Positions 41,018 to 46,297 of a DNA stretch of 46,974 bases are shown here, one piece after another; the first letter of the stretch is position 1; each line of letters opens with the position of its first letter. The stretch spans positions 1 to 46,974 of the forward strand of contig JAIBDY010000016.1 in NCBI GenBank assembly GCA_024685995.1, written 5' to 3'. A program made the position numbers and the translations under genes. Source of the DNA: Piscirickettsiaceae bacterium. Lineage in GTDB: Bacteria > Pseudomonadota > Gammaproteobacteria > Nitrosococcales > Methylophagaceae. The notes under the pieces were generated by a model. That model was not told where the DNA came from. It was given only the letters and a program-made list of their open reading frames with translations, and did no database searches.

Positions 41018-41476
41018 ATGGCAATAGCAACATTTTCCGCAGGCTGCTTTTGGGGCGTCGAAGCGAAATTCAGACAAGTCCCAGGCGTCTTATCAACCCG
41101 GGTAGGTTACACAGCCGGTCATACCGATTCACCTGATTACAAATCAGTCTGTACAGGGACAACGGGGCATGCAGAAGCCATCGAAATCACCTTCGACCCT
41201 GCCGTCATCAGTTACGATGCCTTACTGGATGTTTTCTGGCAAATCCATGACCCAAGCACGTTAAATAGACAAGGTCCTGATGTTGGTAGCCAATACCGTT
41301 CTGGGATTTTTTATCATGACCTGCAACAGAAACAATGCGCACTCGACCAAAAGAAAATGCTCAATAATAGCCATTTTGCCACGCGTCCTATTGTCACGGA
41401 AATTACCGCTGCAAGCCGTTTTTACCCGGCAGAGACCTATCATCAATGTTATTTAGAAAAACAGGGCCAACGCTAA
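41018..41476 (+). CDS. msrA: Peptide methionine-S-sulfoxide reductase MsrA
   Basis: A 152-residue enzyme that reduces the S-epimer of methionine sulfoxide in proteins. The catalytic motif GCFWGVE is near the N-terminus (Cys9), followed by TRVGYTAGHTDSPDY and HAEAIEITFDP. Length fits the short MsrA forms; the C-terminus ends HQCYLEKQGQR. I start at ATG 41018 with GAGGAA seven bases upstream, not the in-frame ATG at 40982. It is divergent from the Pcm-like gene and cytoplasmic. Two protein-repair genes side by side suggest a shared ageing-damage response, but I see no common operator. Confidence 0.94.
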   Translation: MAIATFSAGCFWGVEAKFRQVPGVLSTRVGYTAGHTDSPDYKSVCTGTTGHAEAIEITFDPAVISYDALLDVFWQIHDPSTLNRQGPDVGSQYRSGIFYHDLQQKQCALDQKKMLNNSHFATRPIVTEITAASRFYPAETYHQCYLEKQGQR

Positions 41477-41498: not shown

Positions 41499-41816
41499 TT
41501 ACTTAACCCGTGTTTTGACTAGCCCTTTCGCGCCGATATTATCCACCCAACGTACCAAAATAACATCGCCAACCCTACCGCCAGCCAATTGAAATGAAAA
41601 ATAAGGGTTTTGGGCAGTGGTTACGCCACATTTTATCGCCAGCATTTCATCACCATTGCGCCAGCATCGAATGTCTTGAATAAATTCAGCCTCAATCAAC
41701 ACCGCCTCTGCATCAACATGCCGTCCTGAATGCATGGGGTGGATCAGCAATAATCTCACCCGAGTATGACCCGATCTCAAGGTCGCTCGAATACGGTCTT
41801 CTGCAGCCATCACCAT
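41499..41816 (-). CDS. soxZ: SoxZ-like sulfur carrier partner protein
   Basis: A 105-residue immunoglobulin-fold protein. Conserved SoxZ features: a first strand region with LLLIHPMHSGRHVDAE (family HPMETG), AEFIQDIRCWRNG, and the C-terminal NPYFSFQLAGGRVGDVILVRWVDN. SoxZ pairs with SoxY to form the sulfur carrier of the Sox pathway. It has no signal peptide, as is usual, and would be exported with SoxY. The ATG shares one base with the soxY stop. It ends 22 bases from the convergent msrA. No soxA, soxX, soxB or soxCD is in the window. Confidence 0.88.
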   Translation of the reverse strand: MVMAAEDRIRATLRSGHTRVRLLLIHPMHSGRHVDAEAVLIEAEFIQDIRCWRNGDEMLAIKCGVTTAQNPYFSFQLAGGRVGDVILVRWVDNIGAKGLVKTRVK

Positions 41817-42310
41817 CAGACGGCTCCCCCAGTATCGACACGAATATCATGCGTCAGCTTATAAAGCTGGTTACCAGCACGAGCAACTACAATAATTTTT
41901 GAGTCCCCCTCAACAACTTTAATTCTCGTTCTAAGCGGCAATAATACATTAGAGCTAAAGTCCAAACTCATCACTAAAGGAAAAGGGTTGTTGTCCACTA
42001 AAATGGCTAAGCGCTCAATATCCTCAAGCTCACTATCAATTTCTACTGTCACAGATTGACCATCGACGACGTGCACAGGTGGTTTACCGACCGAAAAATT
42101 CAGCATTTGGTCTTGTGTCGTATCAGCCTGTCCTAGCAGTGCTAGTAAAACATCCTCGACCGTTTCCGCAGTAAAGGCATCTGTAGGCCAGTGTGCTAAC
42201 ACCCGCTGTGGCAAGATCAAGCCACTGGCAGCCACCATCGCTAATGTCGAGGCCGAAATCGTTTTTTTTATAAAATCCCGACGCTGCCTATTAATAGAAT
42301 ACTCGCTCAT
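41816..42310 (-). CDS. soxY: SoxY-like protein lacking the sulfur-carrying cysteine
   Basis: A 164-residue exported protein with a Tat signal (QRRDFIKKTISASTLAMVA) and cleavage near RVLAHW. The mature part has the SoxY fold (LLGQADTTQDQMLNFSVGKPP...RLAILVDNNPFPLVMSLDF). In true SoxY the C-terminus is a flexible GGCGG arm whose Cys carries sulfur. Here it ends DTGGAV, and there is no cysteine in the whole protein. Other frames across the end do not restore a Cys. It cannot therefore carry thiosulfate-derived sulfur in the known way; it may be a structural or binding relative. It overlaps bepA upstream (ATGA) and soxZ downstream. Confidence 0.85.
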   Translation of the reverse strand: MSEYSINRQRRDFIKKTISASTLAMVAASGLILPQRVLAHWPTDAFTAETVEDVLLALLGQADTTQDQMLNFSVGKPPVHVVDGQSVTVEIDSELEDIERLAILVDNNPFPLVMSLDFSSNVLLPLRTRIKVVEGDSKIIVVARAGNQLYKLTHDIRVDTGGAV

Positions 42311-43773
42311 AATGCTTTTAACTGTGCCAGTGCCGCCTCGACATTGACCAATCGAGCATTCATTTTAGCCAATTGATACTCATTGCCTCTCGCCGACTTG
42401 ATTGCCAATTTCAGTTGGTCGATCGCCTGTTCTAATCGGCCGGCACTATAGTAATACTCCGCTAACCAGCTATGTGCTTCACTGGGCTTACCCATATCAC
42501 TTTGTGCTTGTGCTAACAATTTATAGGTTTGTGCTGAACGATAGCCCAGCTCCAACTGTTCTAACAACAATGTACTGGCCTGTTCTGGTAGCCGTGATTG
42601 CAGCAGAACAACCGCTTGCTTCATAGACAATGCATGATCGTCAGGATATAACCGCTGATTCCGCTGATAAATATTTAACGCCTCCGCTAAACGACCACGA
42701 GCCACTTCAATATCAGCCGCGGCTAATTGATAACTTAGTCGTTCGTCATCCTCGGCGATCAGCGCATCGATTTCCGCCCGTGCTTTGTTATAGTCACCCA
42801 TAGCCAATAACGCTAAGCCATAACCATAACGTACCGCGACATCATTGCGATTATTACCCTTCGTAATCACATTCAAATAATGTTGCTGAAGTTCCGCGAG
42901 GTTTGTCGCCGACATCACACGCAACTTTTCGCGCATCAAATAAAATTGTAGATTATCGCTACGTTGCCCTGTCAGCGGGTAATTAACAGCACGCCCTCTG
43001 GCCTCAGCAATCCGTGAAGTGGTCACAGGATGAGAACGTAAAAACTCGGGCACGGCATTACCGGTATAAAAACGACTAGATTGTTGTAAACGCTCAAAAA
43101 ATGTCGGCATGGCCTGCGCGTCAAAGCCGGACCGCACTAAATTTAACATGCCGAGGTTGTCTGCTTCCGCTTCATGGGCACGTGTATGGTCAATCCGCGC
43201 CTGCACACCACTGGCTTGCACAACGGTAATGGCCGCAGCACCCGCTTCAGGATCAGCCGTTGCGAGCAATATCGCCCCGATCAAGGCCGCCGTTCTAGGC
43301 AAACTTGATTGTTGATCTTTCTCAAAGCTGCGAATCAAATGACGTTGTGTCACATGGGCAATTTCATGCGCCATCACCGAGGCCAACTCATCTTCCTGCT
43401 GACTAGTCAACAATAGGCCGCTATTGACGCCAATAAAGCCACCCGGTGCTGCAAACGCATTCACCGTCGTGTCAGGCACCATAAAAAAATGGAACGGCAG
43501 ACTTGGGCTGTCACTGTGTGTGACCAAACGTTGGCCAAGGCGGTTCAAATAGCTATTCACTTCGGGGTCATCGACCAAATCGACCGACTGTTGCAAACGC
43601 CAAAAAAAAGCTTGGCCGATGCGGTATTCTTGTTGAGGTGAAATCAAGCTCCCGGCACTGTCACCGATTTCGGGCAACGCAATATCAGCAGCGTGACTAT
43701 TATTGACGACGGGCCAGATAAACAAGGTTAGAAGTGTGATGACAATACGCTTTCTCATAGAGTGTCTAGACAT
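42307..43773 (-). CDS. bepA: BepA-like M48 periplasmic metalloprotease with TPRs
   Basis: A 488-residue periplasmic zinc protease-chaperone that supports assembly and quality control of outer-membrane proteins. The signal peptide ends around NSHAADI. The M48 site is MAHEIAHVTQRHL (HEXXH) with the third ligand Glu in HEAEADNLGM. The C-terminal ~190 residues are a TPR-like helical array ending NARLVNVEAALAQLKAL. Length fits BepA (487). The gene is upstream of soxY with a 4-base overlap. In E. coli bepA is not near sox genes, so the coupling is notable. Confidence 0.92.
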   Translation of the reverse strand: MSRHSMRKRIVITLLTLFIWPVVNNSHAADIALPEIGDSAGSLISPQQEYRIGQAFFWRLQQSVDLVDDPEVNSYLNRLGQRLVTHSDSPSLPFHFFMVPDTTVNAFAAPGGFIGVNSGLLLTSQQEDELASVMAHEIAHVTQRHLIRSFEKDQQSSLPRTAALIGAILLATADPEAGAAAITVVQASGVQARIDHTRAHEAEADNLGMLNLVRSGFDAQAMPTFFERLQQSSRFYTGNAVPEFLRSHPVTTSRIAEARGRAVNYPLTGQRSDNLQFYLMREKLRVMSATNLAELQQHYLNVITKGNNRNDVAVRYGYGLALLAMGDYNKARAEIDALIAEDDERLSYQLAAADIEVARGRLAEALNIYQRNQRLYPDDHALSMKQAVVLLQSRLPEQASTLLLEQLELGYRSAQTYKLLAQAQSDMGKPSEAHSWLAEYYYSAGRLEQAIDQLKLAIKSARGNEYQLAKMNARLVNVEAALAQLKAL

Positions 43774-43865: not shown

Positions 43866-44102
43866 ATGTCAGATTTTACCGTTGAACTTGATACCTCTGG
43901 ACTTAATTGTCCACTACCGGTACTCAAAGCCCGCAAAGCCTTGTCTAGCATGACGGCTGGGCAAAAATTACAGCTGATCGCCACCGATACTGGTGCGAGT
44001 AAGGATATCCCAGCTTTTTGCAAAATGACAGGCAATCCGTTACTCACCGCGGATGAACACCAAGGAAAACTACGCTTTATCATTGAAAAAGGTGCAGCGT
44101 AA
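43866..44102 (+). CDS. TusA-family sulfur carrier protein
   Basis: A 78-residue cytoplasmic protein of the TusA/SirA fold. The CPxP motif is at Cys15 (LNCPLPVLKARKALSSM), where a persulfide is held. The central VTDTGASKDIP-type segment reads ATDTGASKDIPAFCKMTGN. AAGGA lies four bases before the ATG. It overlaps the DsrE2-like gene by one base (TAATG), so the two are coupled. The pair is divergent from bepA-soxYZ, with 92 bases between. TusA proteins hand sulfur to tRNA thiolation or to oxidation systems; the DsrE2 partner suggests the latter. Confidence 0.9.
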   Translation: MSDFTVELDTSGLNCPLPVLKARKALSSMTAGQKLQLIATDTGASKDIPAFCKMTGNPLLTADEHQGKLRFIIEKGAA

Positions 44103-44566
44103 TGGCTAAGAAGATGGCCATTATTGCCAGTAAAGGCACACTAGACAGCGCCTACCCACCATTTTTACTTGCTTCCACCGCAGCTGCCTTGGGCTTTGAG
44201 GTAAAAATATTTTTCACTTTTTATGGCCTGCAGTTGCTCACCAAAACACCGAATTTAAAGGTCTCTCCCCTCGGCAACCCCGCCATGCCGATGCCCATCC
44301 CCGTTCCTAGCATCATTCAAATTATCCCGGGGCTGGAATGGTTCGCAACGTGGATGATGAAACGCAAAATTAAAAACAAAGGCATCGCCAGTTTAGAAGA
44401 GTTACGCGAGATCTGTATCGAATCCGAGGTCGAACTAATTGCTTGCCAAATGACCGTCGATTTGTTTGATTTCAAAGACCAAGACTTTATTGATGGTATC
44501 AGTCGAGGTGGTGCAGCGACCTTTTTAGAATTCGCCAGCGAAGCCGATATTACTTTATACATCTAA
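44102..44566 (+). CDS. DsrE2-like sulfurtransferase
   Basis: A 154-residue protein of the DsrE/DsrF/DsrH-like DsrE2 branch. It begins AIIASKGTLDSAYPPFLLAS, then LGFEVKIFFTFYGLQLL, a hydrophobic-proline segment MPMPIPVPSIIQIIPGLEW that may be membrane-associated as in DsrE2 proteins, and a conserved Cys in ELIACQMTVDLFDF. DsrE2 accompanies TusA and rhodaneses in sulfur-oxidising organisms, where it moves persulfide sulfur. It ends 11 bases before the tRNA gene on the other strand. No dsrAB or hdr genes are in the window. Confidence 0.87.
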   Translation: MAKKMAIIASKGTLDSAYPPFLLASTAAALGFEVKIFFTFYGLQLLTKTPNLKVSPLGNPAMPMPIPVPSIIQIIPGLEWFATWMMKRKIKNKGIASLEELREICIESEVELIACQMTVDLFDFKDQDFIDGISRGGAATFLEFASEADITLYI

Positions 44567-44854: not shown

Positions 44855-46297
44855 GTGTCTAAAAAATTCAAAAAAGTACTTTTTCTAAGTGCCCTAGTCA
44901 CTTTTTCAACTGGCGTAACCACTGCCAACGCTGCAGAACAGAACTTCGCTTTGACATATTCTGGAAACAGCGGAGGGTCTATCACAGGTAACATTACAAT
45001 CGAAGATTCGCTACTTCGGAATCCCAACATCTTTGCTAATCGTTACTATAGCTCAGGCAGTGCCTTCGACGGCGCTTTTACTGCCCTGTCATTAACAGTA
45101 ACGGGCGGTGTTAACGGCGCGTTTACGTTAGCTGATTTTGATCCAATAGCTTTCGATACAGCTGGTGGGACATTGGACTTGAGTCAAGAATTAGTTGGAC
45201 AGTTAGTAGCCGGCAAAACTTGGGGTGTTGATGCAGGCGATTTTGGTCTTTACTCAGGTCCTAGCTCCGCATTATTTGCACCTGCTAACTATACGCTTCT
45301 GGGGGGAGGCGAATTCTATACTTTAACCTCATTCCGGCCATTGGAGCTTGCCGAGGAGGTTCTTCTGACGCTTGCCGATGTTCAAAACAGTTTGGACTCA
45401 TCAAATCTAAGCGTGCAATCCATTAACACAAACATCGGCTTACTGATAAATGGGGCACACAGTCGTCATATGTCACGTCGTGTTGCCGCGGGTGAAAAAA
45501 CATTCTGGCTTGCTGGTGACTGGGGTAACGATAATCATGGATCACGTAGCGGCGAAACGGGCCTCGCTGAAGTGGGTGGCGGCTACAATTTCGGTCAAGC
45601 TCAATTGAATGTGTCTATCGGTAAGACATGGGCACATCAAGACCTTATCAACGGCGGCGATGTCAGTAGTGACGGCAAATACATTATGGTGACGGGCATT
45701 ATTCCTCTGTCCGTCAACAACGTTGTCTATGCCACTCTTGGAGGATTTCGTCACTGGGGTGACGTCGGCATCGACCGTGGCTAATTCAACATGGGCGCAA
45801 TGGATCGCTCTTCTGCAAGCCCCGATTCAAATACCTAGGGTGTACGCGCCCGTCTAGACTGGGAAAATGCATTCACCGTCAAAACAGCTCGTTTCAGCCC
45901 TTATGCCGACTTGTGGCACAGCGAAACCAAACTGGATAGTTACACCGAAACGGGAGGTGGATTTCCTGCTCGCTTTGATAGTCGCAAAGACAGCATCACC
46001 GAACTTCGTGCTGGCTTAAATGCAGCGATGCCAATCAAAACGTCCGGCTTTGATTTCGTTGCGAATGTTGAAGCGGTACACCGCTTTGATGACAAAGCAG
46101 ATAACACCTCGGGCCAGGTTGTGGGCTTATTCGCCTTTAACCTTGACGGTCAAAGCTATGACCAAAACTGGTTTAAAGGGGGGATCGGTATAGAAGGTAA
46201 ACTAGGTAAGGGTAAAGCCTCACTGATGCTTAATGGGACAACTAAAGGGGAAATGGCTAGTTCATGGTTAGCCGCTTCTTACCAAATAGCGTTCTAA
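44855..46297 (+). pseudogene. Autotransporter-like outer-membrane protein broken by two in-frame stops
   Basis: One continuous frame of 481 codons carries TAA at 45782-45784 (codon 310) and TAG at 45836-45838 (codon 328). It starts with GTG and a signal peptide (ALVTFSTGVTTANAAEQ), passes through a beta-rich passenger, then a C-terminal autotransporter barrel (AAGEKTFWLAGDWGNDNHG...EVGGGYNFGQAQLNVSIG) ending AASYQIAF with the terminal Phe. After codon 328 the frame is intact (GVRARLDWENAFTVKTARF). The stops look like single changes from a Tyr codon (TAT/TAC) and a Trp codon (TGG). It is probably a recent pseudogene. Readthrough of two stops is unlikely. Confidence 0.82.

Follow-up and report, generated by a model that had tools for sequence, protein, structure and literature searches.

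Conservation of a Cysteine-Free SoxY beside SoxZ and a BepA-Type Peptidase in One Clade of the Methylophagaceae

A SoxY-like protein without a cysteine

The carrier role of SoxY is defined by covalent attachment to a cysteine (PMC5336275). The window analyzed here (46,974 nucleotides, the whole of contig C18 from genome G000, a 1.84-Mb assembly that is 81.6% complete) encodes a SoxY-like protein containing no cysteine at all, and the question is what such a protein could be kept for. The named relatives recovered with the window SoxY were Methylophaga and its relatives. The features of the locus are as follows.

41018..41476, plus strand: msrA, directly after soxZ in Cys-less loci, where Cys-bearing loci have a kinase/regulator pair
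41499..41816, minus strand: soxZ, 105 amino acids, start overlapping the soxY stop (TGATG), Cys51 and Cys63 kept
41816..42310 (stop codon included), minus strand: soxY-like gene, 164 amino acids, Tat signal, no cysteine, end DTGGAV
41822..41824, minus strand: GCC codon (Ala163), aligned with the Cys of 44/44 Cys-bearing relatives
42044..42076, minus strand: residues 79 to 89 (VHVVDGQSVTV; SYAVNGASVP[IVF] in relatives), a loop that is conserved where the Cys is present and altered in the Cys-less clade
42307..43773, minus strand: bepA-type M48 peptidase gene with TPRs, HEIAH intact, overlapping the soxY start
44102..44566, plus strand: dsrE2-like sulfur carrier gene, divergent from bepA

The soxY-like open reading frame (ORF) begins with ATG and its product ends in VDTGGAV. 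A Tat signal was identified from the RR motif MSEYSINRQRRDFIKK (TIGR01409, 16.9 bits; cutoff, 16.7), and the Pfam SoxY family (PF13501) matched the protein with an E value of 4e-13 and 49.9 bits, above the gathering score of 28.4. The initial annotation, a SoxY-like protein with a Tat signal, no cysteine, and the end DTGGAV, was thus confirmed. The protein was modeled with AlphaFold2 (mean pLDDT, 74.9; pTM, 0.70), and the top 15 PDB matches of the model were SoxY chains or SoxYZ entries, led by SoxY chains 2nnc and 2ox5/2oxg/2oxh. On this model the protein can still fold as a SoxY, and it probably still pairs with SoxZ, the product of the adjacent gene (TIGR04490, 77.4 bits; cutoff, 76).

The protein scored 71.5 bits against TIGR04488 (SoxY_true_GGCGG), below the equivalog cutoff of 125 bits, and its GGAV end lacks the C-terminal cysteine of the GGC swinging arm. 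Scores against TIGR04557, which describes a fused SoxY-SoxZ, were 32.9 and 42.8 bits (cutoff, 140), and here soxY and soxZ are separate genes. The C-terminal codons are GGG-GGA-GCC-GTC-TGA, compared with GG-TGT/TGC-GGC/GCN-stop in Cys-bearing relatives. A SoxY-bound thiosulfate or sulfane conjugate is impossible for the Cys-less protein, and since a SoxY acts as a carrier through its thiol (PMC5336275), it cannot hold Sox intermediates in the known manner.

The bepA-type gene is the first of the bepA-soxY-soxZ set. Its product is an M48 peptidase carrying the HExxH motif as HEIAH (PF01435; E value, 5e-33) together with matches to TPR families, and it scored 398 bits against the BepA family NF052400 (cutoff, 570). 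No soxAXB genes adjoin the Cys-less soxY, and the dsrE2-like gene lies at the same place in most Methylophagaceae loci read. Elsewhere in the window, two adjoining ORFs (44855-46297, plus strand) look like one outer-membrane/autotransporter-type protein that is broken between 45784 and 45911.

Loss of the cysteine defines one clade

Standalone SoxYs of the Methylophagaceae, marine bacteria that live on methanol, ended in GG-C-[G/A/S] in 44 of 52 cases, and the remaining 8 had no cysteine. A readable standalone soxY was present in 51 genomes of the family (44 Cys-bearing and 7 Cys-less); the eighth Cys-less gene, in G003, is split over two contigs, with a C-terminal piece ending AGGNP. The two pieces together cover the protein and were merged at VL, the residues they have in common, for tree building. 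The cysteine is replaced by Ala in the window, Asp in G010, G018, and G022, Asn in G003, G011, and G012, and Val in G016. In a tree of SoxY, SoxZ, and BepA built without the last two SoxY columns, and hence without the Cys column, the eight Cys-less genomes, all of one Methylophagaceae genus, formed one clade with an SH-aLRT value of 100. The idea that Cys-less forms might constitute a clade was therefore borne out. The initial annotation had measured DTGGAV against a usual SoxY end of GGCGG; the cysteine is indeed lacking, but the ancestral end within the Methylophagaceae is GGC[G/A/S]. No Cys-less SoxY was found among 124 gammaproteobacterial SoxYs surveyed outside the family, all of which have a Cys within the last seven residues; this was a nonrandom sample, made up of best matches to a Cys-less profile, neighbors of BepA, and sequences from the first search for relatives.

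The draft assembly to which the window belongs is incomplete, and a sequencing or assembly error or a frameshift hiding a true GGC end was considered. No single base error could explain the loss, since the codon matches TGT at none of its three positions and the Cys is missing from seven other genomes as well. Four different replacement residues across eight genomes, a Cys codon differing at more than one base, intact reading frames, and further changes shared by the clade elsewhere in SoxY leave the probability of such an error close to nil, and this explanation was rejected.

Those further changes were identified by comparing alignment columns between the 44 Cys-bearing and 8 Cys-less sequences (numbered as the protein plus 1 for SoxY and plus 10 for SoxZ). 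Near-invariant in Cys-bearing forms and changed in most Cys-less forms were the stretch PPSYAVNGASVP, the Lys of KNP, the Asp before GG, and the Cys itself; the window SoxY retains the Asp before GG and the first Pro pair. The clade retains the Tat RR, HWP..AF, LY, and GG as well as further positions of the core. The proposed loss of swinging-arm function was accordingly reinforced, as carrier residues besides the Cys have also changed.

The Cys-less gene is under purifying selection

One-ratio codon models gave omega values of 0.085 for SoxY, 0.087 for SoxZ, and 0.086 for BepA in the Cys-less set, from which G003 was excluded, and of 0.071, 0.077, and 0.083, respectively, in the Cys-bearing set. 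Pairwise omega among Cys-less SoxYs, where computable, ranged from 0.09 to 0.16, with synonymous sites near saturation for most pairs. The Cys-less soxY is held intact by purifying selection and shows no decay, at a mean SoxY distance within the clade of 0.37. The possibility, raised initially, of a SoxY in an isolated, degenerating genome is excluded. Median distance ratios to BepA were 1.08 for SoxY and 1.29 for SoxZ in the Cys-less clade, against 0.80 and 0.82 in Cys-bearing genomes. Constraint on both proteins thus appears strong yet somewhat eased, and their faster evolution relative to BepA also fits partial relaxation.

Absence of the sensor pair and the orphan SoxC

After soxZ, 43 of the 44 Cys-bearing loci have a histidine kinase/response regulator pair, and none of the 8 Cys-less loci does. 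The one exception among the Cys-bearing loci is G066, in which soxY starts 38 bases from a contig end and soxZ is missing there. The kinase has HAMP, PAS, HisKA_3, and HATPase domains and a weak periplasmic match to LapD/MoxY, and the regulator is of the LuxR type. In Cys-less loci soxZ is followed by msrA, pcm, a rhodanese gene, and tolC, and a search at an E value of ≤1e-30 found no kinase orthologue anywhere in the eight Cys-less genomes. In one genome from a different family (locus L060; G054, contig C17, 1683-5830), kinase and regulator matches lie immediately upstream of soxYZ, and going by this gene order, the pairing of the kinase with SoxYZ may not be confined to the Methylophagaceae.

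An orphan SoxC, 47% identical to the operon SoxC, was identified in every Cys-bearing genome of genus g1 (the match in G005 is partial and lies at a contig end) and in none of the eight Cys-less genomes. In genus g3, 12 Cys-bearing genomes lack it as well. A strict link between the orphan SoxC and the Cys was rejected on these grounds; loss of SoxCD alone does not predict loss of the Cys. As the Cys was lost in one evolutionary event, its association with the loss of the kinase and of SoxCD amounts to one data point. The initial annotation had seen the loss of the Cys and missed the loss of the kinase/regulator pair and orphan SoxC that accompanies it.

A second, canonical SoxYZ

Six of the eight clade members (G003, G010, G011, G012, G018, and G022) have a second, separately encoded SoxY with the end TIGGCGG, along with SoxA, SoxB, and SoxC. 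The locus in G018 encodes SoxC, a SoxD-like protein, a SoxX-like protein, SoxZ, SoxA, a rhodanese, and SoxB, and matching proteins are encoded at the loci of the remaining five. Genes of a sox operon of the canonical type are also found in G002, G015, and G025. No sox operon was seen in the G016 assembly, which is 67% complete.

In the 82% complete assembly of the window genome, G000, a second SoxY, SoxZ, SoxB, and SoxC were not found, and the search for SoxA returned one partial, sub-cutoff match. This match, on contig C19, was rejected as SoxA; it is a SoxA-like cytochrome in a MauG cluster. The cluster (locus L071, 2485-5074) comprises the SoxA-like c-type cytochrome, a Tat metallophosphoesterase, and a MauG-like peroxidase, and a partial SoxA-like match also occurs in G021.

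Contig C39 of G000 (7,440 bp) breaks off after hisB-crp-ompW-sqr-tlpA-mauG. Beyond mauG, G018 and G011 have mtoX and then mbl and the sox genes, and mtoX adjoins mauG in G012 and G010. The genes flanking the far side of the G018 sox operon have no close match in G000. Because C39 ends where the operon of its relatives begins and the far-flank genes are missing too, a sox operon probably lies in the unassembled part of the genome, and judging from this gene order, a second SoxYZ in G000 is likely.

It had been proposed that this SoxYZ cannot work in thiosulfate oxidation as known, and a search of the same genome for a second soxY ending GGCGG and for soxXAB had been suggested. The lack of a carrier Cys agrees with the proposal, but a canonical GGCGG SoxY is available in 6/8 genomes, and with a full sox operon in these six a working carrier can still be at the organism's disposal. 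The suggested search brought up the full operon in six clade relatives and, in the incomplete G000 assembly, a contig that stops where the operon would start.

SoxZ cysteines and the link to BepA

Cys63 of SoxZ was present in 51/51 Methylophagaceae SoxZs and Cys51 in 49/51, both in all eight Cys-less genomes; in other SoxZs the Cys63 column holds Trp in 38/55 and Cys in one. With C51 and C63 conserved in the adjacent SoxZ, the window SoxYZ complex is not thiol free, and these two residues could act as thiols.

Among the best 30 BepA loci in a search of the class, 26 came from outside the Methylophagaceae; soxYZ was within the fetched flank in 12 of the 26. Of the outside-family SoxY loci, 34 had not been picked through BepA, and a BepA match was close by in 18 of them (30 of 46 outside SoxY loci, less the 12 picked through BepA). 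Outside-family loci with bepA and soxYZ as neighbors include L118 to L121, L127, L132 to L134, L136, L138, L139, L142, and others. BepA as a paralogue special to the cassette was discounted, as close homologues are common in the class (260/370 genomes). Five Methylophagaceae genomes (G025, G026, G029, G035, and G073) have no standalone SoxY and no close BepA, the best BepA match being 30 to 32% in four of them and none being found in G029; deletion of the whole operon would explain this joint absence as well as a functional link would. A literature search for SoxYZ with M48, BepA, or YfgC gave no paper treating SoxYZ and BepA together among the matches listed.

What the Cys-less SoxYZ may be for

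The reading we favor, with a probability of about one-half, is that the BepA-linked standalone SoxYZ, having lost both its sensor pair and its carrier thiol, was kept for a role that does not need this thiol, while a second SoxYZ carries sulfur. The ancestral arrangement would have been bepA-soxY-soxZ-kinase-regulator with a SoxY ending GGC[G/A/S], as still seen in 44/52 genomes, and the ancestral Cys may have borne sulfane sulfur both to be sensed by the kinase and to serve the orphan SoxCD. The clade of eight would then have lost the kinase/regulator pair and orphan SoxC, with changes to the Cys, the PPSYAVNGASVP loop, and the KNP Lys, in that presumed order. Sulfur carrying would fall to the second SoxYZ (GGCGG) in a separate, complete sox operon, which in G000 is presumed. 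The Cys-less SoxYZ would be retained, most likely, as a noncovalent periplasmic binding partner or adaptor, with the co-encoded BepA-type protease as the foremost candidate partner. As selection has kept the gene intact despite the loss of the Cys, the SoxYZ of the clade probably does a job that needs no sulfur on SoxY. Such a role is plausible given a Cys-less clade with its carrier residues lost and its gene under purifying selection, and this SoxYZ may, as initially suggested, serve as a binding or scaffold module. A broader version, in which a second, thiol-independent function of SoxYZ tied to a BepA-type envelope protease is widespread in Gammaproteobacteria wherever bepA and soxYZ adjoin and is exposed by this clade, which has shed the parts for sulfur carrying and sensing but not BepA-SoxYZ, is rather doubtful.

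An unlikely but serious competitor is that the canonical SoxYZ made the BepA-linked copy redundant, so that it lost its Cys and is drifting slowly while held in the bepA operon. The raised evolutionary rates of SoxY and SoxZ in comparison with BepA would fit such a relic, as would the loss of carrier-loop residues in genomes from which the kinase, regulator, and orphan SoxC have already gone. It sits poorly with omega values (0.085 to 0.087) equal to that of BepA, with a full-length soxY bearing the Tat motif and GG in seven genomes, including ones of 1.2 to 1.5 Mb, and with deep divergence that has brought no decay. It is improbable that the thiol has instead moved, with SoxZ carrying sulfur or a redox function via Cys51 and/or Cys63. 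The near-universal presence of these residues, at a column that is Trp in most other SoxZs, speaks for this; however, SoxZ evolves faster in the clade, both cysteines may be structural, and their equal conservation in Cys-bearing forms means that the loss of the Cys did not bring them about.

Slightly less probable again is competitive regulation, in which a dead SoxY with SoxZ binds the canonical Sox enzymes without being a substrate. A C151S SoxYZ still binds SoxB (PMC5336275), and a full sox operon co-occurs in most of the clade, but NGAxVP and the KNP Lys, which are shared with canonical SoxY, have been lost, and an interface with Sox enzymes is unlikely to have been kept.

Relation to known SoxYZ systems

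The window SoxY resembles the SoxY of the Sox system (TIGR04488; PDB entries 2nnc, 2ox5, and 4uwq) in domain, modeled fold, Tat signal, and adjacent soxZ and differs in lacking the C-terminal Cys, in its changed ENGA-V-P and KNP residues, and in having no soxAXB beside it. Incomplete Sox sets with soxCDYZH components are reported from most Methylophaga genomes (PMC6548844), and cultured Methylophaga have a standalone soxYZ (soxCDHYZ, no soxAB; PMC6548844) belonging to the same family as the window SoxYZ. Unlike the window locus, the loci of the other family members read have retained their Cys together with the kinase/regulator pair; among these members is genus g3, which appears to contain a genome named Methylophaga aminisulfidivorans HyVt-380.

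A SoxYZ-like carrier thought to act outside thiosulfate oxidation is the quinoprotein dehydrogenase-associated protein (TIGR04557; PP_2677 of the ped cluster, PMC12997753); that carrier is a fusion, whereas the window SoxYZ is encoded by two genes not beside a quinoprotein dehydrogenase. Symbiotic sulfide oxidizers have second SoxYs with an altered arm beside a canonical SoxY (PMC11237559), but those keep GGC. Sequences without the GGC motif were removed as poor quality in that study (PMC11237559), and Cys-less forms would therefore have been excluded from it.

Overall, the Cys-less SoxYZ probably has a role that does not depend on the SoxY thiol. For annotators, thiosulfate oxidation should not be inferred from soxYZ alone. 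A clade that lacks the cysteine defining SoxY yet keeps the gene under selection is a natural case of separation of function, and through it the question of what SoxYZ does alongside BepA and a sensor kinase, in bacteria without the other Sox proteins, can be approached directly.
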